A DNA stretch of 24,857 nt from a virus, in IMG/VR virus record IMGVR_UViG_3300020451_000309, positions 1 to 24,857 of that record; one strand, given 5' to 3'. The translations under genes and the position numbers were made by a program. The notes below the pieces were generated by a model, which saw nothing but the letters and a program-made list of their open reading frames with translations, did not search any database and was not told the origin of the DNA. Below, piece by piece: positions 12,182 through 23,447 of this stretch (position 1 is its first letter; each line of letters starts with the position of its first letter).

Positions 12182-13726
12182 ATGGCTTCTAATTACGAAA
12201 CACAGAAAAAAATGCGTGCTGCTCAAGTCGGCACCATTATGCCTTGGGTTGGAGATTTATCTACTCAACCTGATGGATGGTTAGAATGCAATGGACAAAC
12301 AATAGAGGCAACTGACTATCCTGTTCTTGCTTCAGTTATTGGTAACACATACGGTCCTGCTAATGGACTCAATAATAGAACATATGGTAATTATATACTT
12401 GGTGATCAGTTCAGACTACCTTCATTAAATGGTAGAGTTCTAACTGATTATGAACCAAGTTTAGTCAACGTATCTAATCTACAGATGGGACAAACATATC
12501 CCAGTGGTGCGGTTGGTGGTTTAGTTATCATTCAAGGTGAAAGCGATACTACTCGTACTTCACAAACTGTTAACGTAACGAGCAACACTGCTCAACTTGT
12601 TCTTGGAACTGGTGTAACTGGATCAGCATTACAACTAACAGTTGACTGTGATGTTAACGGACGTGTTGATGTATCTAATATTGTTAATAAAGGTAGTGGA
12701 TTTGCTACAGGAGATAAATTAACAATCCCAGCAACTGTATTCTCTGGAAATGATGATGTTGTTCTTCAGGTTGCATGGGTATTACCATCTGTTGCTGATG
12801 TACTTACACCAACAGCGGCAGGAACAACAAAATTAATTGATGGTGATGGATCTACCGTCACTCCACCAACAGCATTAAATGCTACTGCTGATTTGAATTT
12901 TGTTGTGACTGACTCTCAGAACATGACTGCACAGATTAGAAACTTTAGTATTAATCCTCCTGCATATTTTAAAAGTTATTATACTATCCCTAGAAAATTA
13001 AGTAAGGATCATATGCCTTCACATAGGCACGTAGGACCCGATGGTTCAGCAGCAGGATATAGTCGTGGTGACTCTGATGCAGGTTATGTTGAGGGATTTC
13101 AATGCCCTGGACTTGTAGGTGCTGTTGAATCTAATCAAAAACAAAAACGATTGGATGCTGGTGCAGGTGGTGATATTGATACTGTTGACCCTGGAACTCT
13201 CTTAGTCACATATTATGAAGAAGGCGTGACTACAATGACTACGTTCCAACCTACAACACAGAATGTTGCAAGTGTTGGTACACAAGTTCCAATGCCTACT
13301 TGGACTGGTCCTGTTCCTAGAGCATTAAACGGTACATATCCTAACGAATGTAACTATCGTGAATCTTCTCAGTCAGGTTTCTTTGCAAATAAAAAGAACT
13401 GGTATGGTAATCAGACTGCTGATCAAATTAACCAAGCAACTGGTACATCATTAACATATCCTACTACACTAAATCATAATAAAGAAAATATGACTGGTGT
13501 TGGTAACTCAATTAATTCTCATAACCATTATTCATTTGAAGTTGTTATGAATGCTGGTTATGTTTCACCACCCACAATTGTTCCCGTAGATAACATTCAA
13601 ATTCAGAGTAATTTAACTGGTGCTCCAACCAATATTGGTGTACAAAACATCCCGTCAGCACTAAATATTAACGTAGATGTTAGGACTCCAGCATTGTCCA
13701 TGATTTACCTAATTAGAGCATACTAA
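12182..13726 (+). CDS. Phage tail-collar-domain protein 1 (short-tail-fibre-like, 514 aa)
   Basis: Residues about 15-95 match the phage tail collar domain: VGTIMPWVGDLSTQPDGWLE, CNGQ, DYPVLASVIGNTYG and DQFRLPSLNGRVL. T4 gp12 uses this domain in its receptor-binding tip. Two His-x-His motifs are present, H281/H283 (PSHRH) and H447/H449 (NSHNH). In T4 gp12 an HxH pair from each chain of the trimer binds a metal in the needle-like tip. The region between about 110 and 270 is a beta-rich insertion specific to this copy. The protein ends PALSMIYLIRAY. It starts four bases after the giant gene and its TAA shares a base with the next ATG, so it is probably translationally coupled. A tail adhesin is the likely role. 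Confidence 0.82.
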   Translation: MASNYETQKKMRAAQVGTIMPWVGDLSTQPDGWLECNGQTIEATDYPVLASVIGNTYGPANGLNNRTYGNYILGDQFRLPSLNGRVLTDYEPSLVNVSNLQMGQTYPSGAVGGLVIIQGESDTTRTSQTVNVTSNTAQLVLGTGVTGSALQLTVDCDVNGRVDVSNIVNKGSGFATGDKLTIPATVFSGNDDVVLQVAWVLPSVADVLTPTAAGTTKLIDGDGSTVTPPTALNATADLNFVVTDSQNMTAQIRNFSINPPAYFKSYYTIPRKLSKDHMPSHRHVGPDGSAAGYSRGDSDAGYVEGFQCPGLVGAVESNQKQKRLDAGAGGDIDTVDPGTLLVTYYEEGVTTMTTFQPTTQNVASVGTQVPMPTWTGPVPRALNGTYPNECNYRESSQSGFFANKKNWYGNQTADQINQATGTSLTYPTTLNHNKENMTGVGNSINSHNHYSFEVVMNAGYVSPPTIVPVDNIQIQSNLTGAPTNIGVQNIPSALNINVDVRTPALSMIYLIRAY

Positions 13727-14871
13727 TGAAGTTTTTAACACGAGAAAGATCAAAATTAGGATCTGCACCTGGGACTATTATTCAGTGGGCTTTACCTATT
13801 CAAGATGGTGATCCAGATGGATCTACAAATGTTGTGGATTTACCTGCAGGGTATCTTAAATGTGATGGTTCAATATACACAGAGAGATTATATCCTGAGT
13901 TAGCACGTATTCTCGGTACAGGTGCTGCATGTATTTACAAAAAAAGTGATGTAACTTTACTAACAGATCAGTTTCAAGTTCCAGACATGGGATCTAAACA
14001 TATTGAAGCATCTGTTAATGCTAACGTTGGTACATATAGAAACATTGAAAAAACCACTGCTAATACTACTATTACAAAAGCGGGTGTTGGTGTAGAAATA
14101 GTATCAAATGTAGGTAATACAGCAAACGTTGGATTCAATGGTGTGTTTACCGTACCATCCCAAACTTTTGCTTTGAACGGTAATGTAGGGTGGACCGTAC
14201 CAACAAACACAGAGAGTGAACAGGTTGCTGCAACAGCAATTGGTCCTCATATGCACTATACTTCTACTTCTCGTGTGACTGTTAAGGAAGATCCTGGGCA
14301 ACCAGCAGGAGCTTATGGAAATACATCTAGACCATATTATTTGAGAACTGCTGACGCAACAACTGCTACTCCAGACTGTAATCAAATTGCTGCAGCATTT
14401 TATCAACAGACTGTACAAGGAGGCGGTGGACCAAATAATTGTAATGCTGGGTGTGCTGGGTTTGGTTCTTATTTTATTGGTTCATATGGTGGTGCTGTTT
14501 CAAACTGGCCAGTAACTAAGACCATCTCAACCATAACTGCAAATAGTTGGCCATCACTTGTAAATCAACAAGTTGGTAATCTAAGACCATATGATGTTGT
14601 ATCAAATACTGGTGCTTATGCATATCCACTTGTAAGAAATACTGAGCAGGTAGTGTCGTCTCCCCCAGGTGCTGATACTACTAACTTGACTATACATTCT
14701 CATAGAATTGAAAAAGAAATCGGTGATACTGCTTTTAATGCTACAACTGATGTCGAAACTATTAGACCAGACGGATTACAAGCGTCTGTAAATATAAGAA
14801 CTGATACTGATACTAAGTTTGACGACATTGTATCTCCTTATGTTGTTATGGAATTCCTAATTAAGTATTAA
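13726..14871 (+). CDS. Phage tail-collar-domain protein 2 (381 aa)
   Basis: The N-terminal collar domain covers about residues 14-95: APGTIIQWALPI, AGYLKCDGS, LYPELARILGTG and DQFQVPDMGSK. Two His-x-His pairs are visible, H175/H177 (GPHMHYTS) and H324/H326 (IHSHRIEK). These fit a metal-stabilised adhesin tip like that of T4 gp12. It ends VVMEFLIKY, similar to the ends of its two neighbours. A Cys- and Gly-rich stretch (NNCNAGCAGFG) lies around residue 238-248, which is unusual for a fibre tip. The start overlaps the previous stop by one base. The next gene starts one base after this stop. Confidence 0.8.
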   Translation: MKFLTRERSKLGSAPGTIIQWALPIQDGDPDGSTNVVDLPAGYLKCDGSIYTERLYPELARILGTGAACIYKKSDVTLLTDQFQVPDMGSKHIEASVNANVGTYRNIEKTTANTTITKAGVGVEIVSNVGNTANVGFNGVFTVPSQTFALNGNVGWTVPTNTESEQVAATAIGPHMHYTSTSRVTVKEDPGQPAGAYGNTSRPYYLRTADATTATPDCNQIAAAFYQQTVQGGGGPNNCNAGCAGFGSYFIGSYGGAVSNWPVTKTISTITANSWPSLVNQQVGNLRPYDVVSNTGAYAYPLVRNTEQVVSSPPGADTTNLTIHSHRIEKEIGDTAFNATTDVETIRPDGLQASVNIRTDTDTKFDDIVSPYVVMEFLIKY

Positions 14872-14872
14872 C

Positions 14873-15946
14873 ATGGCTATAAGATTAGAACACAAATATA
14901 ATCATCATTATAGTGATATGCATGACGATAGTGGAATACCTATTGGTACTATCATGTGTGTCTTTGTAGATACAAATGGAAATGGTGCTGCCGATGTTGC
15001 TAATAACTATCCTGGCTGGTTATACTGTGATGGAGCACAACATAGTGTTAATAATTTTCCAATGTTATATGATGTGATTGGGGATAAGTATGGTGGTACT
15101 GCTCCTAATACAGTCACATTATCTGATTGGGGTAACACTGCAGGTAGTGTACAGAATGCTGTATTTAATGTACCTGATATGAGAATGAAAAGAGTTGTAG
15201 GTCCTGGTGGTGTAGACGGTGTAGGATCTATCACACCAGACAATGCACCAATGAACGTAGGTGATGTTGGTGGTGAATGGTATATTTCAAGAGCTAGACA
15301 AAACGAAGAATATGGTGTAGGATCAGTAAGGGTACAAGGTTATAGTGACTGTATTGGATTTGTTTCTGGTACACTAGGAGGAACAGCAGAAATTACTATT
15401 GGTCCTCTACAATCAAGAATAATAAATGGTCCACCCGCACACGGTCATACTGTTTTAAATTCTGAAAGGGATCAACGTAATGGAGGACAAAATGGTACTC
15501 CTGCTGATGGTGAAAAGTCTACAAACTATATCACCAACACAGGACCAATTGATCAGTTTGATCCTACAAATGGACAACAGGCAGAACATACTCATTACTT
15601 AGCAGAATATTCTCCTGTTAAATCAGGAACTGATTCACAGTATTCTTACTGTACTTCTGCACCATATACAAATTCACCTGATGCATATACAAATGCCTAT
15701 GGTGCTACAAAAGTAAATGATGGTGTTGTAAATCAACGAGGACAAACAGTTAATATGTTTGAATCTCAAGCATTGACTGGTGCTAATGCAGTTACACCTG
15801 CACAGGCAGGTATGTCTCTTAATGAAGGGACAATCACTATGACTCCTGGGGAGCAACTTAGTGTAATTGCAGGTATTATTCCACAAACTGCAGTTCCACT
15901 TGTACTAAAATACTTTAGGGTAAAATATTTAATTAAAGCTTGGTAA
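14873..15946 (+). CDS. Phage tail-collar-domain protein 3 (357 aa)
   Basis: The collar domain is at about residues 21-110: IPIGTIMCVFVDTNGNG, YPGWLYCDGAQ, NFPMLYDVIGDKYGG and AVFNVPDMRMKRVVGPGG. The two His-x-His pairs are H190/H192 (PPAHGHTVL) and H239/H241 (EHTHYLAEY). Here they are only about 49 residues apart, against about 150-166 in the two preceding paralogues. The C-terminus reads LKYFRVKYLIKAW. It is the third diverged member of a tandem family. No signal peptide is present, as expected for a virion protein. The next gene starts four bases beyond its stop and encodes an oxygenase, which suggests co-expression. Confidence 0.8.
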   Translation: MAIRLEHKYNHHYSDMHDDSGIPIGTIMCVFVDTNGNGAADVANNYPGWLYCDGAQHSVNNFPMLYDVIGDKYGGTAPNTVTLSDWGNTAGSVQNAVFNVPDMRMKRVVGPGGVDGVGSITPDNAPMNVGDVGGEWYISRARQNEEYGVGSVRVQGYSDCIGFVSGTLGGTAEITIGPLQSRIINGPPAHGHTVLNSERDQRNGGQNGTPADGEKSTNYITNTGPIDQFDPTNGQQAEHTHYLAEYSPVKSGTDSQYSYCTSAPYTNSPDAYTNAYGATKVNDGVVNQRGQTVNMFESQALTGANAVTPAQAGMSLNEGTITMTPGEQLSVIAGIIPQTAVPLVLKYFRVKYLIKAW

Positions 15947-15949
15947 ATT

Positions 15950-16651
15950 ATGGCGATTACAACTCCTGGATCATCGAATTTTAATGAGATGGTCAGTCCC
16001 ATCATTCCTGTTAATATGATGGGTGGGAAAGCAGAATATGATGATTTTATTGCTGTTTATAAAAACTTTATGCCCTCTGCGGTATGTAATGATATTATAA
16101 GTTTTTATAAACAATGGAAAGATCAGGCAGTTAAGCAACATATGGAAAAAGATCTTCGTAGTCGTCAAGCATTTGATAACTATGAAGAATCTATGAGTGG
16201 AGACGGTCAGTTTGCTACTGGTGAACTTGGGAGAAAAGATCTATCCATTATGTTGGAGACTCTCAACACACCATTAACTGCTAGAATTAATCAGTATCTA
16301 CAATCTGTAGTAAATGATTACTGTAAACAATATAATACACTCAATGGTACAGCACTAACTTCTTGGGCAGTTAAGTTTCAAGAAACTCCTGAGGGTGGTG
16401 GGTATCATGTATATCATTATGAACGTGGTTCATGGAGTGAAACTGCTAGGGAACTTGTTTGGATGATATATCTAAACGAAGAATTTGAAGGTGGTGAAAC
16501 AGAATTTTTATATCAAAAGCGTAGAATTAAACCTACCACAGGCACTGTAGTTCTATGGCCAGCAGGGTATACTCATACACATAAAGGAAACTTAGTACTC
16601 TCAGGAACTAAATATATTGTAACTGGATGGTACTATCAGCAACCCGTTTAA
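15950..16651 (+). CDS. Predicted Fe(II)/2OG oxygenase, prolyl-4-hydroxylase-like (copy 1)
   Basis: The 233-residue protein has the double-stranded beta-helix signature of prolyl-4-hydroxylase-like enzymes. The first metal motif is GGGYHVYHYE (H156-Tyr-E158, with H153 just before). GGETEFLYQKRR and WPAGYTHTHKGN follow, with H209 or H211 as the distal ligand. K221 in TKYIVTGW is the likely 2OG carboxylate contact. Such enzymes hydroxylate a substrate, often proline in proteins, using O2 and 2-oxoglutarate. The acidic ligand is Glu, not the usual Asp. The second copy at 21828-22472 keeps the same pattern. It follows the collar genes by four bases and precedes the tail-chaperone-like gene, so it is probably expressed late. 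The substrate is unknown. Confidence 0.85.
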   Translation: MAITTPGSSNFNEMVSPIIPVNMMGGKAEYDDFIAVYKNFMPSAVCNDIISFYKQWKDQAVKQHMEKDLRSRQAFDNYEESMSGDGQFATGELGRKDLSIMLETLNTPLTARINQYLQSVVNDYCKQYNTLNGTALTSWAVKFQETPEGGGYHVYHYERGSWSETARELVWMIYLNEEFEGGETEFLYQKRRIKPTTGTVVLWPAGYTHTHKGNLVLSGTKYIVTGWYYQQPV

Positions 16652-16654
16652 GAC

Positions 16655-17512
16655 ATGTCTCTCACAAATAAAACAATATCAATCAGTGGATTGAATAAGA
16701 CTATCACTCGTGGTGGTTTCTCTAGAACTTTTACAGATAAAGACTGGACTACGTTCATAACTCCTCTTATCTACCCATTATGGGATAGTGATAAAGATCT
16801 TTTAGTAGCATTTAACTATGTTGACTCTCCAGTAGAAACATGGTCATGTGATAAGAAAAAGTATGTTCGTAATCATACTACAGGAGAATACTTTTGGAAA
16901 CCATATATTTTTACTGAAGTAGAGATCGATGTAGTACAGAAGTTTGTTACTGATATAGATGAAGCATTTGATGCACAACTCTCAACTGAATTTGAGCATC
17001 AAAGTCTTAAAATGAATCAAGTTATTGATGAAGCTAAAGGTTTATCTCTCTCAAGAATTAAATCATGGAGAGACTTCTTCTTACATTCTAGTGATTGGAC
17101 AATGTTAGAAGATGCACCCGTTACTGCTGATGAAAAAGTACAATGGAAAACATATAGACAAAAATGTCGTGAACTTCCAGATCTGTTTTCATCTGGTACT
17201 GAAGTTCTTGCTGAGATTAAAGTACCTATCGACCCTATTGTTTACAAAAAGAATTATCTACCCTATAATAGTGGAGCAACATATCTTGGAAGTGATGATC
17301 AGTGGGTAACATTCCCAGGAAAAGATATCCCAGGTGGTGCAATGGAAGAAGCAATGAGAAGATATGTTGATATCGCATTACAACTATCAAGACCTTCACC
17401 ATTGTTCAACGTATCTGATATTTCACATCTTACTGATCCAGTTGAAGTTCTAATCAAACAAATTGAGAGAGAACAAGCACTACTAGATGAAGCAAAAGCA
17501 GCAGAGGGCTAA
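16655..17512 (+). CDS. Tail-assembly-chaperone-like protein (285 aa)
   Basis: Residues about 133-176 match the phage tail assembly chaperone pattern: SRIKSWRDFFLHSSDWTMLE, then DAPVTADEKVQWKTYRQKCR and ELPD. In other phages this short domain is typical of proteins that help tail fibres fold or attach. Here it sits inside a much longer protein. The N-terminal 130 residues include NHTTGEYFWKPYIFTEVE, and the C-terminal 110 residues end in a charged helix (IKQIEREQALLDEAKAAEG). It may be a virion-associated or scaffold protein. It lies between two oxygenase genes directly after the three collar genes, and its stop shares one base with the next ATG. A role in tail-fibre assembly is inferred from the domain and its position. 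Confidence 0.7.
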   Translation: MSLTNKTISISGLNKTITRGGFSRTFTDKDWTTFITPLIYPLWDSDKDLLVAFNYVDSPVETWSCDKKKYVRNHTTGEYFWKPYIFTEVEIDVVQKFVTDIDEAFDAQLSTEFEHQSLKMNQVIDEAKGLSLSRIKSWRDFFLHSSDWTMLEDAPVTADEKVQWKTYRQKCRELPDLFSSGTEVLAEIKVPIDPIVYKKNYLPYNSGATYLGSDDQWVTFPGKDIPGGAMEEAMRRYVDIALQLSRPSPLFNVSDISHLTDPVEVLIKQIEREQALLDEAKAAEG

Positions 17513-18201
17513 TGATTCGACAATATAAATGGTTAAGTGAAGTAATCTGTAAAAATATTAATGATCTTTATAATAGTGGTAATTTTGTAGACGGTAAAGA
17601 GTCTGGTACTCACAACAGAGACATTAAAAGAAATAGAGAACTAGATGGAGATGCAGTTGATACAGCTACTGAGTTATTCATGAAAGCATTTAGAGAAGAT
17701 CCATGGTGTACTTCTCTACATCTTAGACATCATACTATGCCCATGTTCAATGAATATGATGCAGTAAAAGATAATAATGGAGTATATAATTTTCATTGTG
17801 ATAATGCTATCATGAATGGATTACGTACTGATCTAGTTATTCTTACTGCTATGAATGATGAGAGTGAGTATGAAGGTGGTGATTTAACAATCAAAGTTGG
17901 TAATATTGATGTAGGTTTCCGACTACAGGCAGGTCAAAGTATTGTATTCGACCCTAATTTATGGCATACAGTGTCCCCAGTTACTAAGGGACATCGTAGA
18001 ATGTGTGTAATTTGGGGAGAAGCACTCATCCGAGACGCATGGATGAGAGAAATGTTCTATGATTATATGGATGTATCTGCAAGATGTTTAAATAGTATAG
18101 ATCAAGATAAATGGTATGAGCAAGGAAATCAAATGGATCCTGCTACATACCTTGGAGCACTCAGACAAAAAATACTACGTCAGTATTCAACCCCACTATA
18201 A
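17512..18201 (+). CDS. Predicted PKHD-type Fe(II)/2OG hydroxylase (PiuC/YbiX-like)
   Basis: The 229-residue protein has FHCDNAIM with the HxD pair H95/D97, then YEGGDLTIK, and LQAGQSIVFDPNLWHTVSP with distal H152. PVTKGHRRMCVIWGEALIRD follows, where R162 is the expected 2OG anchor. This order and spacing closely follow PiuC/YbiX enzymes. PiuC is linked with iron uptake in bacteria, but its substrate is not settled. An alternative substrate such as a phage protein cannot be excluded. The TAATG overlap with the preceding chaperone-like gene, and a purine-rich AGAGGG just upstream, support this start. The gene ends three bases before the next start. Confidence 0.85.
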   Translation: MIRQYKWLSEVICKNINDLYNSGNFVDGKESGTHNRDIKRNRELDGDAVDTATELFMKAFREDPWCTSLHLRHHTMPMFNEYDAVKDNNGVYNFHCDNAIMNGLRTDLVILTAMNDESEYEGGDLTIKVGNIDVGFRLQAGQSIVFDPNLWHTVSPVTKGHRRMCVIWGEALIRDAWMREMFYDYMDVSARCLNSIDQDKWYEQGNQMDPATYLGALRQKILRQYSTPL

Positions 18202-18204
18202 ATC

Positions 18205-18570
18205 ATGGAAAATTTTCTAGGACTACAAGAATTAATTTCTCTATCATCACTACAATCTTATGCTAACGATAAAGTAATTTTGTTCTATAATGCATCTAAT
18301 ATTAGAGACTTAGAAGCAACAGGTAATACTACTAAACTCAACACAGTTTATGAGTTCTATAAAAATTTAATGCCTGATGGATTATACGCAGAGTTTTTTA
18401 AGTCATCCTTTGGTGGTATAACTTACACTGATGAATATTCAGCACAAGATTTTGCTGAAGACTATTTCCCACGTCCTGCACTATCTGTTGATTCTGATCA
18501 CTATGTCTATGCGTGTGTATATAAAAATGGTGTTATTGTATGGGAAAATACTGATCCTCCGACAAGTTAG
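18205..18570 (+). CDS. Hypothetical protein (121 aa), tail-to-tail with the minus-strand gene
   Basis: No domain is recognised in this 121-residue protein. It has a mainly hydrophobic, helical first half (LQELISLSSLQSYANDKVIL) and ends in a beta-like DHYVYACVYKNGVIVWEN followed by a short tail DPPTS. There is no signal peptide or membrane segment. Its final 38 bases overlap the end of the reverse-strand oxygenase gene. The last few residues may therefore be an acquired tail created when that gene was placed here. It follows the PiuC-like gene by three bases and is the last plus-strand member of the late block. Confidence 0.7.
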   Translation: MENFLGLQELISLSSLQSYANDKVILFYNASNIRDLEATGNTTKLNTVYEFYKNLMPDGLYAEFFKSSFGGITYTDEYSAQDFAEDYFPRPALSVDSDHYVYACVYKNGVIVWENTDPPTS

Positions 18571-19333
18571 AAGGACGAAGTTGAGTAACTAAAAAAGAAT
18601 CTCCTGGCTCATGGAACCCATGAAATTGTATAGCAGTCTCTACACCTTCTAACCAAGCAGTAAAGTGTCCATGAGGTTTACGAAATTCTAAATCAGTTTG
18701 CTTCTTTGGATACAATAATACATCACTTTCTTTAATTTTGTGTGGTAAATTATATTCTACACATGCAGGTTCAAATGGACGAGTGTTCCATAAATTGTAC
18801 ATAAGTGTAACTCTTTTGTCTCCAGGTTGTATATGTCCCATACCAGAGGGAACTCCATGAAAGTATGGTAGTGTCCAAGAAATATGCTTACCCATCTTTG
18901 GATAAGACCAAAATGTCCAATCATCATTACCAGTAACATACACACCGTCTTTCTTTAACCAATCATGATGTTGGTCACATACGACAGTGGGTTGTCCACC
19001 GTCACATAGATATGTTACAGTAGAAAAAGGTGCAGCAATATACTCACCAGTTTGTCTAAATCTATCGACATCACCGTCTACATGAAAATACCATTGACTA
19101 TCAATAGTATCATGTGATCTAATCCACCACTCAGCACCTAGATATCCGTCTAGTCCATGTTGATGTGCAGATCTGTATATAAAGTTTTCAATTATATTTG
19201 ATGGTGGTTTGCTTAATTCATACCACCAAGTTAACTTTTCTTCTGGATCTTGTGCTAGAATAGTATTAGCTTCTACACGTAGATCTAAAGCACTCTCTTC
19301 AGTGAGATAATTATTATATGATTCAATACTCAT
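18533..19333 (-). CDS. Predicted Fe(II)/2OG oxygenase on the minus strand (266 aa)
   Basis: This is the only minus-strand gene in the window. The HxD pair is H84/D86 in WYFHVDGDVDRF. Then come PFSTVTYLCDGGQPTVV, and YFHGVPSGM with likely distal H159. R174 in KRVTLMYNLW is the expected 2OG contact. This is the standard order for the oxygenase fold, although overall similarity to the neighbours is low. Met1 at 19333 is the first in-frame ATG. It overlaps the opposite-strand ATG at 19332 through a CATG tetranucleotide. No clear promoter or Shine-Dalgarno is visible upstream on the minus strand. A GGATGA lies 12 bases before the start, and GGTAAATA about 40 bases before it is a poor late-promoter match. 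The substrate is unknown. Confidence 0.75.
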   Translation of the reverse strand: MSIESYNNYLTEESALDLRVEANTILAQDPEEKLTWWYELSKPPSNIIENFIYRSAHQHGLDGYLGAEWWIRSHDTIDSQWYFHVDGDVDRFRQTGEYIAAPFSTVTYLCDGGQPTVVCDQHHDWLKKDGVYVTGNDDWTFWSYPKMGKHISWTLPYFHGVPSGMGHIQPGDKRVTLMYNLWNTRPFEPACVEYNLPHKIKESDVLLYPKKQTDLEFRKPHGHFTAWLEGVETAIQFHGFHEPGDSFLVTQLRPSNLSEDQYFPIQ

Positions 19334-20033
19334 GACTAATAAAATTCATCCGCTGTTCCCTACAGTTATTTACCAGTGTAAGGTTGATGGACATGAAAAA
19401 TGGAAAGAATTGTTGGAATCGAAAACAGAACATCATTTTGACCCATGCACATTTGCAGACAAATATGCTAAAGGATATCATCTAACTGGTGAAGCAAGAG
19501 GTAAGAGTGTAATGCATAAAGATGAGGATCTCTCTTCGTTCTTCACTATTATAGCAGATAATGTTCGTGAATGCTTAACTAGTTCTGGTATCAAACCAGA
19601 CATGCATGATGTTCACTTCATGAAGTCGTGGTGTACTATCAAAGAGTATACAGACACTATGTCTGAACATAACCATGCATGTTCTGATCTATCCTTTGTA
19701 TACTATGTTAACACACCATACAAAACTGGTCTAGTATTTACTGTTCCAAAGAATCCAAATGAGTATTTTGGTGGAGTCTTTGATCCTAAAGATGATCCAC
19801 GTTCACATACATTTGAGGATAACTTTATTAATGCATGTAGCACATTCCTACCAGTAGAGGCAGGAGATCTATTATTATTTCCTGGGTCCATGCGTCACTC
19901 AGTACCACCAGAGGGACATAAGAAAGGAAAGTATTTAAGAAGTATTGCAGGAGATATTAAGATATCATTGAAAGAAAAATATATTAACCTAGAGACAGGA
20001 CTTATTCATCCTTCACATTGGAGATCATTTTAA
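19332..20033 (+). CDS. Predicted Fe(II)/2OG oxygenase, 2OG-FeII_Oxy_5-like (copy 1, 233 aa)
   Basis: The N-terminus (LFPTVIYQCKV) and the later signature follow the TIGR02466/2OG-FeII_Oxy_5 type: SEHNHACSDLSFVYYVNTP, then LPVEAGDLLLFPGSMRHSVPP. The first motif is H113-Asn-H115, not HxD. The distal ligand is H189, and R203 in YLRSIAGDIK is the likely 2OG contact. The start ATG overlaps that of the divergent gene at 19331-19334, so there is no space for a separate leader between the two genes. Its stop shares one base with the next ATG. The next gene has the same fold, so the two may be ancient duplicates. The substrate is unknown. Confidence 0.8.
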   Translation: MTNKIHPLFPTVIYQCKVDGHEKWKELLESKTEHHFDPCTFADKYAKGYHLTGEARGKSVMHKDEDLSSFFTIIADNVRECLTSSGIKPDMHDVHFMKSWCTIKEYTDTMSEHNHACSDLSFVYYVNTPYKTGLVFTVPKNPNEYFGGVFDPKDDPRSHTFEDNFINACSTFLPVEAGDLLLFPGSMRHSVPPEGHKKGKYLRSIAGDIKISLKEKYINLETGLIHPSHWRSF

Positions 20034-20653
20034 TGCAGCAGTTTCTTGATTTTAGATGTCGTATCATTAATTACACTACACATACATTTGATGTGTTAAA
20101 AATTCTTAATGCAATTTATGATACAAGTTGGGATAAACGTATTAAGAACGCTACCATGGTAGGAGGATATCAAATACGTGAAGCATATCTTAATGAGATA
20201 TGTAATGAAGAGATGAGAAAATTTATGGATGAGGTTGTAGTTGATGCAGTACAACAATATTGTATGCAAGAGTATGCTGCAGGCAATGTTGGCGATCGTT
20301 TTGGAGATGGACCTGGGCAGGGTGGATTACCACCTATCTCTATTGATCTAACTGAATATTGGATTAACGTCATGCCCCCAGGAGGGTATCAAAGGATACA
20401 TTCACATCCTAACGCTAATTTAAGTGGTACATTTTATCTACAGGCACCTGAGGGATCAGGAGATCTGTTTATTCCGTCACCATATATAAATGGAATTGAA
20501 AATATAATCTCTACAGCGTCAGAATATATCATACCACCAAAAGTCAGAGAAGGATGGTTACACCCGTCATCACTCCCTCACTCGGTATCCAGAAATGAAT
20601 CAGATGAAGATAGAGTCTCAATTTCGTATAATTTAAAACTAAAAGCTGTGTAA
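20033..20653 (+). CDS. Predicted Fe(II)/2OG oxygenase, 2OG-FeII_Oxy_5-like (copy 2, 206 aa)
   Basis: The conserved block reads GGYQRIHSHPNANLSGTFYL, with an H123-Ser-H125 motif. It continues with LPHSVSRNESDEDRVSISYN, giving distal H183 and the 2OG-binding R194. I chose ATG 20033, which overlaps the previous TAA (TAATG). A TTG at 20018 in the same frame lies inside the preceding gene and is less likely. The middle section includes a flexible Gly-rich loop (GDRFGDGPGQGGLPP) around residues 88-101 that the other copies lack. A promoter begins right after the stop. The substrate is unknown. Confidence 0.83.
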   Translation: MQQFLDFRCRIINYTTHTFDVLKILNAIYDTSWDKRIKNATMVGGYQIREAYLNEICNEEMRKFMDEVVVDAVQQYCMQEYAAGNVGDRFGDGPGQGGLPPISIDLTEYWINVMPPGGYQRIHSHPNANLSGTFYLQAPEGSGDLFIPSPYINGIENIISTASEYIIPPKVREGWLHPSSLPHSVSRNESDEDRVSISYNLKLKAV

Positions 20654-20656
20654 TTG

Positions 20657-20665
20657 TGCTATAAT
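20657..20665 (+). promoter_or_regulatory. Extended -10 promoter
   Basis: TGCTATAAT is a perfect extended -10 element (TGnTATAAT) with TATAAT at 20660-20665. No good -35 is visible 17 bases upstream, as is common for this promoter class. The ATG of the next gene is 22 bases after the -10, so the leader would be about 15 bases. Confidence 0.65.
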
Positions 20666-20686
20666 AAAATTAAGTAACTTATTAAT

Positions 20687-20986
20687 ATGAAAGATCAAGG
20701 TTCAGTAGGGAATGAATCCTCTGCTATTAAGTATGATAGAGCATTATCTCTATTCACAGAGTCAGTAATGAAACCTGACGCTGATTTACGTGGTTGTGCT
20801 CACAACCAAGGATGTTTCGATGAACTCATGGAGATCAGGACACATGTATTAGACTATCTCAAAACATTAAAGGAAGTCACACACCATACTAATCCTGATG
20901 AGAGTGATGAAATAGAAGCAGCGAAGTTACAAGAGCAGAAAGAATACGTTAACGATCAAAAACCATATTATTACAAATGGAGATAG
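20687..20986 (+). CDS. Hypothetical protein (99 aa)
   Basis: No family is recognised. The protein is charged, probably helical, and has no signal or membrane segment. A central GCAHNQGCFDELMEIRTHVL contains two Cys flanking HNQG, which could be a metal or disulfide site, but this is only a visual pattern. The C-terminal half (EIEAAKLQEQKEYVNDQKPY) looks like a long charged helix. It follows the extended -10 promoter at 20657-20665 and overlaps the next oxygenase gene by 10 bases, so both are likely made from one message. The overlap suggests it is expressed together with that oxygenase. Confidence 0.72.
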   Translation: MKDQGSVGNESSAIKYDRALSLFTESVMKPDADLRGCAHNQGCFDELMEIRTHVLDYLKTLKEVTHHTNPDESDEIEAAKLQEQKEYVNDQKPYYYKWR

Positions 20987-21594
20987 ACCCACAAGTAATT
21001 AATATTTGTCCTACATTTATTATTACACAGAAATTTCCACCCTCTAAGGCATGGAGGATAAAGAAACAGATACAAGAACTAGAGTTTCTTTCAAGTCCGA
21101 GACAAACTAAGAACACTCGTATCTTAGATCTCCCTTTCATGAGAGAATTAAAAGCTACGATTACAGGTACAATAGAAAATCTTATACACAATCTCGACAA
21201 AGATTCTAAAAATGCAGGTTTTAAATTCTTAGATTCATGGGCAAACCAGTATGATAAAGGGGAAGCGGCACAGGTACATGTACATCCAAACTCACAGTTT
21301 AGTGGAGTAGTATTCTTTGACGATGATGATAAGTTGATGTTTCATAGACCAGATCCATGGCATGATCCAACGCTACCTATTAATATGATAACAAAAGATA
21401 ATAATGATTATTACAGGAAGCATACTCATCAACAAATTACTGCACAAGCAGGCACTATCCTTGTATTCCCTTCAATGTTAGAGCATTCTACTATGCGTTC
21501 TGATGGAGATAGAGTCACTGTATCATTCAATACTTTCCTCACTGGAGACTTCTGTATGGAAGGACATACATTACAAGGAACAAATCTTGCTTGA
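20977..21594 (+). CDS. Predicted Fe(II)/2OG oxygenase, 2OG-FeII_Oxy_5-like (copy 3, 205 aa)
   Basis: The diagnostic block is AAQVHVHPNSQFSGVVFFDD, with H101-Val-H103. AQAGTILVFPSMLEHSTMRS carries distal H170, and GDRVTVSFN gives R179 as the 2OG contact. The N-terminal 80 residues are predicted to be largely helical and are not shared with the sister genes. The ATG at 20977 lies within the last codons of the upstream gene, with no distinct Shine-Dalgarno. Its stop codon overlaps the -35 box of the next promoter. Its placement downstream of a separate promoter suggests it is not strictly tied to late expression. The substrate is unknown. Confidence 0.83.
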   Translation: MEIDPQVINICPTFIITQKFPPSKAWRIKKQIQELEFLSSPRQTKNTRILDLPFMRELKATITGTIENLIHNLDKDSKNAGFKFLDSWANQYDKGEAAQVHVHPNSQFSGVVFFDDDDKLMFHRPDPWHDPTLPINMITKDNNDYYRKHTHQQITAQAGTILVFPSMLEHSTMRSDGDRVTVSFNTFLTGDFCMEGHTLQGTNLA

Positions 21595-21619
21595 CCTTAT
21601 GCACATTATCAGTTACAAT
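21591..21619 (+). promoter_or_regulatory. Sigma70-type promoter
   Basis: TTGACC at 21591-21596 and TACAAT at 21614-21619 are 17 bases apart. The -35 box overlaps the stop codon (TGA 21592-21594) of the preceding gene. The ATG at 21643 is 24 bases past the -10, again giving a short leader without a strong Shine-Dalgarno. Confidence 0.7.
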
Positions 21620-21642
21620 AGAGATTATACAACCTATTAATC

Positions 21643-21831
21643 ATGGATCTTCCTACAAACGTACCGTTAGACACAAATCAGATCAGATTTATTCTAGATA
21701 TGATGATGGGTTGCCCTCTAGGACACACAAGTTCATACTCACGACAACATGACGTGATTGCAGAGGATCTTTACAATCATCTTGAAGCACACTTAAATGC
21801 AGCGAATGCTGAACTATCTACAGGTAAATGA
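21643..21831 (+). CDS. Hypothetical protein (62 aa)
   Basis: This 62-residue protein has no recognised domain. It starts MDLPTNVPLDTNQIRFIL and carries MMMGCPLGHTSSYSRQHD, then a probable amphipathic helix (IAEDLYNHLEAHLNAANAEL). It has no signal or membrane segment. It lies behind the promoter at 21591-21619 and its TGA overlaps the ATG of the P4H-like gene (ATGA), so translation of the two is likely linked. Function is not evident. Confidence 0.75.
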   Translation: MDLPTNVPLDTNQIRFILDMMMGCPLGHTSSYSRQHDVIAEDLYNHLEAHLNAANAELSTGK

Positions 21832-22472
21832 GCGAAGATTTCATCAGAACATATGATAAAGTATTGACGAGACAGTTATACGATAACGTCATATCAATCT
21901 GTGATCAAAAGAAAGCATTTCAAATTCCTCGTTCTGTTAACAGAAAACAGGAGCATGTAAATGATATGCAACTACTGTTAGAACCAATCTATCCTGAGGT
22001 TGCCCGTGAGATCACGGAACTAGTGATGCATCGTATGGTTATACCATATTTTGCTGAGTTTCCTGCTAGTAGAATGGAAGGAAGATGGACTAGTGGTTCG
22101 ACTCTATATCAAAAGACAGAACCCACAGGTGGATATCATATTCTACATGCGGAAGCAACTGGATGGTATAATAGTACTCGTGTCCTAGCATGGATGATTT
22201 ACTTGAATGACCTTAATGATGAGGATGATGGTGGTGAGACCGAGTTCTTATATCAAAGTCGAAGAGTCAAACCAGTAAAAAATCTAGGAGTAGTGTGGCC
22301 AGGTGGTATCACACATATGCATAGAGGTAATCCACCATTGAAGAAGACCAAAAAGATTCTCACTGGATGGATTCAACCATGTGGTGATATGCACCTCTAT
22401 GAACCAAATTTCATTGCTGCAGAACAGGATGATATGCAAATTAAAAAAGATGGAAAACCATACAAACGATGA
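21828..22472 (+). CDS. Predicted Fe(II)/2OG oxygenase, prolyl-4-hydroxylase-like (copy 2, 214 aa)
   Basis: This is a paralogue of the 15950 gene. Shared blocks are GGYHILHAEATG (H104, H107, E109), GGETEFLYQSRRVKP and VVWPGGITHMHRGN (H163/H165). K residues in KKTKKILTGW take the place of the 2OG-binding lysine. As in copy 1, the acidic metal ligand would be Glu. The extension after ILTGW ends in a charged tail (DDMQIKKDGKPYKR) that copy 1 lacks. The ATG overlaps the stop of the previous small gene, and its own stop overlaps the next ATG. Unlike copy 1 it is in a small-gene operon behind a sigma70-type promoter. The two may act at different times. The substrate is unknown. Confidence 0.85.
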   Translation: MSEDFIRTYDKVLTRQLYDNVISICDQKKAFQIPRSVNRKQEHVNDMQLLLEPIYPEVAREITELVMHRMVIPYFAEFPASRMEGRWTSGSTLYQKTEPTGGYHILHAEATGWYNSTRVLAWMIYLNDLNDEDDGGETEFLYQSRRVKPVKNLGVVWPGGITHMHRGNPPLKKTKKILTGWIQPCGDMHLYEPNFIAAEQDDMQIKKDGKPYKR

Positions 22473-23368: not shown

Positions 23369-23390
23369 GACAGTTCAACAAGTTGCACAC

Positions 23391-23413
23391 ACCCCCTTCA
23401 CAGGGGGTTTTTT
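23391..23413 (+). terminator. Intrinsic terminator after the 70-aa gene
   Basis: The stem ACCCCCT (23391-23397) pairs with AGGGGGT (23402-23408) across a TCAC loop and is followed by six T residues (23408-23413). The stem is G-C rich and should be strong. It ends the transcript of the gene at 23156-23368. Confidence 0.9.
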
Positions 23414-23415
23414 AT

Positions 23416-23424
23416 TGCTATAAT
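23416..23424 (+). promoter_or_regulatory. Extended -10 promoter directly behind a terminator
   Basis: TGCTATAAT is a perfect extended -10 element with TATAAT at 23419-23424. It begins three bases after the T-run of the terminator. The -35 position lies within the terminator stem and does not match well. The ATG at 23448 is 24 bases downstream, with AAAGGA as Shine-Dalgarno at 23437-23442. Confidence 0.75.
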
Positions 23425-23447
23425 AATAGTATAAACAAAGGAACTCC

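Follow-up and report, generated by a model that had tools for sequence, protein, structure and literature searches.

Oxygenase genes in a conserved tail-fibre setting of marine T4-like cyanophages, with a possible role in fibre hydroxylation

Why would a phage keep a run of Fe(II)- and 2-oxoglutarate (2OG)-dependent oxygenase genes directly behind the genes for its tail fibres? The question is raised by a 24,857-base virus record of the IMG/VR type (IMGVR_UViG_3300020451_000309, analysed as a whole and hereafter called the window), in which the gene for a giant protein of 3473 amino acids is followed by three collar-domain fibre genes and then by an oxygenase region, an order common to T4-like cyanomyoviruses. 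Seven oxygenase genes had been predicted here, starting at positions 15950, 17512, 18533 (minus strand), 19332, 20033, 20977 and 21828, with the three collar genes in front of the first and a tail-assembly-chaperone-like gene at 16655 inside the cluster. All seven coordinates and open reading frames were confirmed, and the neighbours passed the respective Pfam profiles. We refer to the seven genes, in this order, as A to G.

Gene A has a fixed place between fibre and chaperone genes

The third collar gene (14873–15946, plus strand; 357 amino acids) lies directly 5′ of A (15950–16651, plus strand), which is followed by the chaperone-like gene (16655–17512, plus strand) and by B (17512–18201, plus strand). 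The intergenic distances are 3 bases between the collar gene and A, 3 bases between A and the chaperone gene, and −1 base between the chaperone gene and B. The chaperone assignment relies on a PF16778 match of 43.4 bits (cut-off 26.6), on phrog_4697 and on the place of the gene directly behind the fibre genes.

This arrangement recurs among relatives. In a scan for A, which covers the best 80 of 272 relatives with near-copies included (two are contigs identical to the window), a chaperone gene is the next recognised gene downstream in all 80 loci and a collar gene the next upstream in 76; three of the remaining loci are cut by a contig end and one has no detected collar gene. For a dereplicated view, 124 chaperone genes from the scans for A, C and collar proteins and from annotated phages, and hence from loci partly chosen by A, were grouped at 80% identity into 42 clusters. 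A is present in 39 of them, with a collar gene directly upstream in 38, and B stands behind the chaperone gene in 35. Of the three clusters lacking A, only one permits a judgement on whether B is absent too; the annotation of S-WAM2 shows no B beside the chaperone. The original prediction had named variation independent of the collar genes as the pattern that would speak against a link to the fibres, and A and B do not display it (38 and 35 of 42 clusters, respectively).

A second scan started from the collar N-termini, with an alignment built from A-bearing loci, and covers the best 80 of at least 455 relatives (at least 599 stretches). Fifteen of its 18 informative loci have a 2OG-oxygenase gene right after the last collar gene: nine read collar–oxygenase–chaperone and six collar–oxygenase–end of locus, and the other three (L228–L230) read collar–chaperone without an oxygenase. 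In the remaining 62 loci, neither a chaperone nor an oxygenase gene is seen behind the last collar gene identified, for the most part because the contig stops; 12 of them have more than 6 kb past that gene. In isolates, the third collar domain can sit 9–13 kb behind the second.

Among isolate genomes with a Collar match over the cut-off, 15 of 16 have an oxygenase match 398–681 bases behind their last collar gene. The exception is S-WAM2, whose chaperone gene comes directly after the last structural gene and whose nearest listed oxygenase match lies 12 kb further on. A stands between fibre and chaperone genes in S-PM2, S-RSM4, S-H9-1, S-MbCM7, ACG-2014j, S-RIM32, S-CAM1, S-CAM3, ACG-2014e, ACG-2014i and Sf-FP1; Sf-CH1b has the same arrangement, with the chaperone not labelled. 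An A-like gene also lies inside a tail-fibre cluster in P-RSM1 and in metaG-MbCM1, the latter of which has no Collar match; as the P-RSM1 gene falls outside the A clade described below, it gives a hint of linkage at most. A homologue of A in a Rhizobium phage has no annotated tail gene within 6 kb.

Three annotations deserve mention in passing. The A-like gene of metaG-MbCM1 (26729–27358) is annotated as two separate parts and has a single TAG within the matching region, and is a pseudogene or the product of a sequencing error. Near the cassette, a "ferrochelatase" of S-MbCM7 (42532–43080) and a "DNA endonuclease V" of S-PM2 (190123–190632) match PF13640 with E-values of 5.4e-20 and 1.2e-7, so that both labels look wrong.

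In a tree of 70 PF13640-type domains, obtained by a quick method with SH-aLRT support only, no bootstrap, and two differently labelled rows for one gene, the A genes in tail position, 23 in all, group in a single clade (SH-aLRT 94), as do 20 of 21 B genes in a second one (98), the odd B row being a long branch. Both clades stand apart from the 21 rows that come from other genome places, and the position labels change 8 times on the tree compared with 36 in shuffles. G behaves differently from A and B, clustering with oxygenase genes located elsewhere in the genomes of Syn1 and P-SSM2. P-SSM2 72004–72597 (PSSM2_108), a relative of A that branches next to the A clade but not within it, also neighbours structural genes, as it directly precedes the baseplate wedge genes gp25 and gp6.

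The widespread core of the cassette consists of A, the chaperone gene, B and a small conserved gene for 121 amino acids (18205–18570, plus strand; phrog_4883), whose family is present in 81 loci of L001–L099 (not dereplicated). C and D join this core in the lineage of the window, where the order A–chaperone–B–121-residue gene–C–D is found in 28 of 28 loci as far as their ends allow; the same order occurs in L004–L013 and L024–L027, some of these contigs being shared with the 28 loci. For C and D, the predicted linkage to collar genes holds within this lineage, and E, F and G do less well, since they vary among relatives. All three are present at 47–66% identity in a closer relative (L011). The long relative L024 has E and F homologues of 34% and 30% identity and no match to G. 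In L128, the 5.3 kb available downstream of D contain no oxygenase match. Two further small genes, at 20687 and 21643, lie among A to G.

Oxygenase families and metal sites

Six of the seven genes exceed curated Pfam cut-offs for 2OG-Fe(II) oxygenases (27 bits in each case), and PHROGs agree. A (44.7 bits; phrog_61), B (34.1 bits) and G (21828–22472, plus strand; 40.8 bits) belong to PF13640 (2OG-FeII_Oxy_3), and D (19332–20033, plus strand; 43.1 bits), E (20033–20653, plus strand; 67.9 bits) and F (20977–21594, plus strand; 60.3 bits) to PF13759 (2OG-FeII_Oxy_5). The best match of A in the Protein Data Bank (PDB) is a prolyl 4-hydroxylase (P4H), to which its sequence likeness is weak (E 0.0027). 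A carries a lysine ten residues past its distal histidine, a position at which collagen P4H presumably has a lysine as well.

The usual metal triad of 2OG oxygenases is HX(D/E)..H (PMC4543633; here and below, citations refer to the parts of each paper that were consulted). Among the 70 aligned PF13640-type domains, HxE..H..K is intact in 23 of 23 A rows and HxD..H..R in 20 of 21 B rows; G, a single row, reads HxE..H..K. D, E and F instead have HxH..H: the first metal site is HxH in 13 of 13 aligned rows, and the carboxylate of HX(D/E) is absent. This count covers 13 of 15 rows, leaving out L097 and L012, whose E homologue (L012:2413–3015) has lost even HxH. A metal motif had been predicted for every gene, which is borne out for A, B, C and G and applies to D, E and F only if HxH is accepted. 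Aspartate/asparagine-β-hydroxylase (ASPH) likewise lacks the carboxylate, yet such a carboxylate-free 2OG site can work (PMC4543633), and this precedent leaves room for activity of D, E and F with HxH. The use of 2OG by these PF13759 proteins is putative. Two PF13759 structures, 2rg4 (E 2e-11) and 3bvc (E 1.7e-10), are sequence relatives of E with HxH at the same place in the alignments; both are bacterial proteins without assigned function, and we saw no link to tails for either.

Recent tandem duplication as the source of the array is not supported, as D, E and F share 17–22% pairwise identity and A and B 19%; A and G reach 39%, but G clusters with genes of other loci. A chance pile-up of motif-like reading frames is ruled out by the six genes over curated cut-offs and by the conservation of C with its active-site residues.

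A predicted oxygenase fold for gene C

Alone among the genes of the cluster, C (18533–19333) lies on the minus strand. It shares 38 bases with one neighbour and 2 with the other, and it keeps its inverted place in relatives. Pfam gives no match to C at E ≤ 1. Its alignment comprises 29 sequences, that of the window among them, and not one of these hits a 2OG family at E ≤ 10. A search of PDB sequences returned a single match, with an E-value of 0.7 and not an oxygenase, and profile–profile comparison (hhalign) with A and B returned nothing. The 28 aligned relatives share 52–89% identity with C, and His84, Asp86, His159 and Arg174 are invariant in all 29 rows.

An AlphaFold2 model computed from the 29 sequences reached a pLDDT of 89.7 and a pTM of 0.89; an earlier model from nine sequences had been poor (pLDDT 52.4). 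In Foldseek, the top PDB matches of the model are 2OG-dependent enzymes, among them HygX, OkaE, an algal prolyl 4-hydroxylase and AlkB, besides PF13759 proteins (2rg4 ranks second) and putative oxygenases; the TM-scores to the query are low (0.26–0.45). Z-scored structural alignments, which re-compare Foldseek's own top 1000 and of which 50 are listed, fall on 2OG-dependent enzymes in all 50 cases and span residues 1 to about 187. The Pseudomonas putida prolyl-4-hydroxylase aligns best (Z 12.8, root mean square deviation (rmsd) 2.5 over 146 residues, 14% identity), and human PHD2 gives Z 12.5 and rmsd 2.8 over 150 residues at 12% identity. The fold is thus nearest to peptide prolyl hydroxylases and AlkB. 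The substrates of the two named enzymes are EF-Tu and HIF, respectively, and C differs from both by an added C-terminal part. Because a double-stranded beta-helix fold coincides with an invariant HxD..H..R motif, we read C as a predicted oxygenase.

An antisense artefact is ruled out by the 52–89% conservation, the invariant residues and the absence of any plus-strand open reading frame of at least 60 amino acids within 18570–19332. One C homologue (L134:3897–4684) has a broken reading frame and was called as two C fragments.

Number and density of oxygenase genes

Seven oxygenase genes in 6.5 kb had been considered dense. The density is real but not exceptional among marine T4-like phages. 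In S-RSM4, seven oxygenase matches lie at 89–95 kb, within a span of 6.5 kb, and the collar domains are far off at 158–162 kb. S-SCSM1 has seven annotated oxygenases at 210.7–219.7 kb around two tail-fibre genes, ORF244, which is labelled a virion protein, and ORF245, an array similar to that of the window with a different gene order. S-SCSM1 carries 24 oxygenase genes, which are taken as host-metabolism genes (PMC9602691); in the gene clusters listed by Sullivan et al. (2010), a single genome has at most five (PMC3037559). All 24 phage records that we searched contain 2OG-oxygenase profile matches, the records having been chosen mostly via such matches.

In 16 isolate genomes, 54 of 129 listed oxygenase matches fall within 6.5 kb behind collar genes, compared with 4.3 expected under uniform placement; these isolates were mostly found via matches to A, B or F, which inflates the excess by about one or two genes each, and the uniform expectation overlooks the plastic regions of these phages. 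The count misses weak unlisted PF13640 matches (two in S-WAM2), uses estimated collar ends for Syn1, S-RIM44 and S-H9-2, and covers those 16 of the 24 records whose Collar match exceeds the cut-off. Of the 10 oxygenase genes in a 135-kb relative of the window, 9 are found no more than 16.5 kb behind the last collar domain (1.2 expected), and in a 63-kb contig carrying the cluster of the window at 99–100% identity the same applies to 6 of 7 (1.8 expected).

Possible function of the cassette

A chaperone serves its fibre, and fibre and chaperone genes hence neighbour each other. A keeps its place between such a pair, separated from either gene by 3 bases, and its active site is intact; the simplest reading is that it acts on the fibre or on the chaperone. 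PF13640 enzymes include peptide prolyl hydroxylases and A weakly matches P4H, for which reason we propose hydroxylation as the reaction. Our tentative suggestion, to which we give a little less than even confidence, is that a tail-fibre cassette has A, and probably also B, among its dedicated genes, and that these enzymes would hydroxylate the collar fibre proteins or the chaperone during assembly; we infer the step from linkage to adhesin hydroxylation. The cassette, ordered as collar fibres, A, chaperone and B, would operate as follows. A and B would be made alongside the late structural proteins, would bind Fe(II), 2OG and O2 in the infected cell, and would hydroxylate side chains on the collar-domain fibres or the chaperone before the trimer assembles or while it does so, with proline as a first guess for the target. 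C and D would be further enzymes of the same cassette in this lineage, and E, F and G accessory oxygenases gathered in a variable stretch behind it. Such a role would not require the oxygenase to be a virion component. Phages of the S-WAM2 type, without A, have collar proteins of the same general kind, which suggests that the modification would not be required by every such fibre and would be tuned to fibre type rather than essential to all. The giant protein had been put forward as a further target; in our analysis nothing points to it in particular.

Taken further, many marine T4-like cyanophages might hydroxylate their own fibres, with A and the chaperone acting on the nascent trimer and B, here with C and D, setting stability or host recognition. 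This wider picture is possible, though we doubt it more than we believe it. If it applied, fibre maturation would depend on oxygen, iron and 2OG, and hence on the host's light and nitrogen status, and phage host range would be tied to the host's oxygen, iron and 2OG. The conserved fibre–oxygenase–chaperone cassette would then give one group of oxygenases a direct role in building the adsorption apparatus. Virus-encoded 2OG enzymes also occur in giant viruses, such as a collagen lysyl hydroxylase of mimivirus and a prolyl 4-hydroxylase of chloroviruses. These enzymes are thought to modify the virus's own proteins, in viruses of eukaryotes and, for mimivirus, on collagen-like substrates. The window differs in this respect, as neither its giant protein nor its collar proteins contain collagen-like runs.

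Several observations weigh against a fibre-directed cassette, in addition to the sampling of the isolates and the uniform expectation noted above. S-WAM2 and the three contigs L228–L230 combine collar and chaperone genes without A. No residue separates the last collar proteins of loci with A (65) from those without (3, all of one type); proline makes up 6.1% of the former and 4.1% of the latter, a difference to which we give no weight given these three sequences of one type. The late-promoter motifs of T4 and cyanophage work (TATAAATA and CTAAATA) show no excess over chance, so that the late expression assumed above stays an inference, and a generic scan for promoters and terminators was uninformative inside the cluster. 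The nearest relatives of A outside its clade sit at several genome places. Distant C homologues (25–27% identity) in P-HM1, P-HM2 and MED4-213 are annotated as hypothetical proteins, and the one in P-HM2 has no tail gene within 5 kb. Mass spectrometry of S-SCSM1 virions identified 45 proteins, and the consulted part of that report names no oxygenase among them and mentions no search for hydroxylated residues; proteomic work on S-PM2 and Syn9 has been mentioned as well (PMC2984593).

Three other explanations were weighed against fibre modification, and none of them explains the fixed place of A. According to the first, there is a hot spot of insertion behind the fibre genes, and the oxygenases, E, F and G most of all, have gathered there without any function connected with the tail. 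E, F and G have likely just accumulated in a plastic region: they change among relatives, and G clusters with paralogues from non-tail positions. The seven matches of S-RSM4, remote from its collar genes, fit the same explanation, and hot spots of cyanophage genomes have been described, though not for this region (PMC3037559). Chance insertion would not, however, yield the fixed collar–A–chaperone–B order or the separate A and B clades, and as an account of the whole array we consider it unlikely.

We judge equally improbable a second explanation, in which the enzymes hydroxylate host proteins such as translation factors and are placed in a late structural operon only for strong expression. 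B homologues are labelled PiuC in S-PM2 and Syn1, a name that we take to denote a bacterial hydroxylase. The P. putida enzyme that gives the best structural alignment with C has also been solved in complex with EF-Tu, and EF-Tu is hydroxylated by a Pseudomonas prolyl hydroxylase (PMC4543633). Action on host proteins nevertheless leaves both the fibre–chaperone place of A (38 of 42 clusters) and its single clade unexplained.

The least probable of the three is that the enzymes act on small molecules, namely host surface sugars, a secondary metabolite or the 2OG pool controlling NtcA: roles in 2OG and NtcA control or in DNA repair have been proposed for cyanophages (PMC3037559, PMC2984593), islands of halogenases and oxygenases for the decoration of polysaccharides or metabolites have been reported (PMC7824862), and the window begins with a gene for an FkbM-type methyltransferase, but Pfam and PHROGs recognise no other biosynthetic gene between A and G, the consumption of 2OG would not need several distinct enzymes, and the place beside the chaperone gene stays unexplained.

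Neither the enzymes nor their numbers are new, and public records, that of S-PM2 for example, already show the cassette. The T4-like gene clusters 240 and 412 (S-PM2p227 and S-MbCM7_030), which are listed by Sullivan et al. (2010), contain A genes likewise located between a short tail fibre gene and a chaperone gene. In contrast to the fibre modification considered here, that paper treats them as affecting 2OG levels, NtcA or DNA repair, with no fibre link in the parts consulted (PMC3037559). Published work, to the extent consulted, discusses these oxygenases as metabolic or repair genes, and in the open-access literature searched, itself partly consulted, we did not find the link between oxygenase and fibre genes, or its conservation, remarked on.

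Collar fibre proteins and other features of the window

The first collar gene (12182–13726, plus strand; 514 amino acids) matches PF07484 with 54.7 bits and phrog_4591, a short tail fibre family. The second (13726–14871, plus strand; 381 amino acids) matches PF07484 with 27.3 bits together with phrog_31602 and phrog_4714, and the third matches it with 39.8 bits together with phrog_30655 and phrog_4924 (PF07484 cut-off 24 bits throughout). Each of the three proteins contains exactly two HxH motifs, at residues 281 and 447, 175 and 324, and 190 and 239, respectively. Among the non-redundant collar reading frames of the fetched loci, 242 of 247 have at least two such motifs, with a mean of 2.16 compared with 0.12 in shuffled sequences. 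HxH pairs bind iron in the tip of T4 gp37 and have been reported in cyanophage tails (PMC11705849); by analogy, the collar fibres probably carry metal.

The FkbM-type methyltransferase gene at 84–767 (PF05050, 50.1 bits) is located upstream of the giant protein gene. Behind the oxygenase region, a stretch of 42–45 bases at 23385–23429 is 93–95% identical to unannotated DNA of P-SSM2 and P-SSM5. It contains a terminator-like hairpin with a T run (23391–23408) and a promoter-like site, and is perhaps a conserved intergenic control element.

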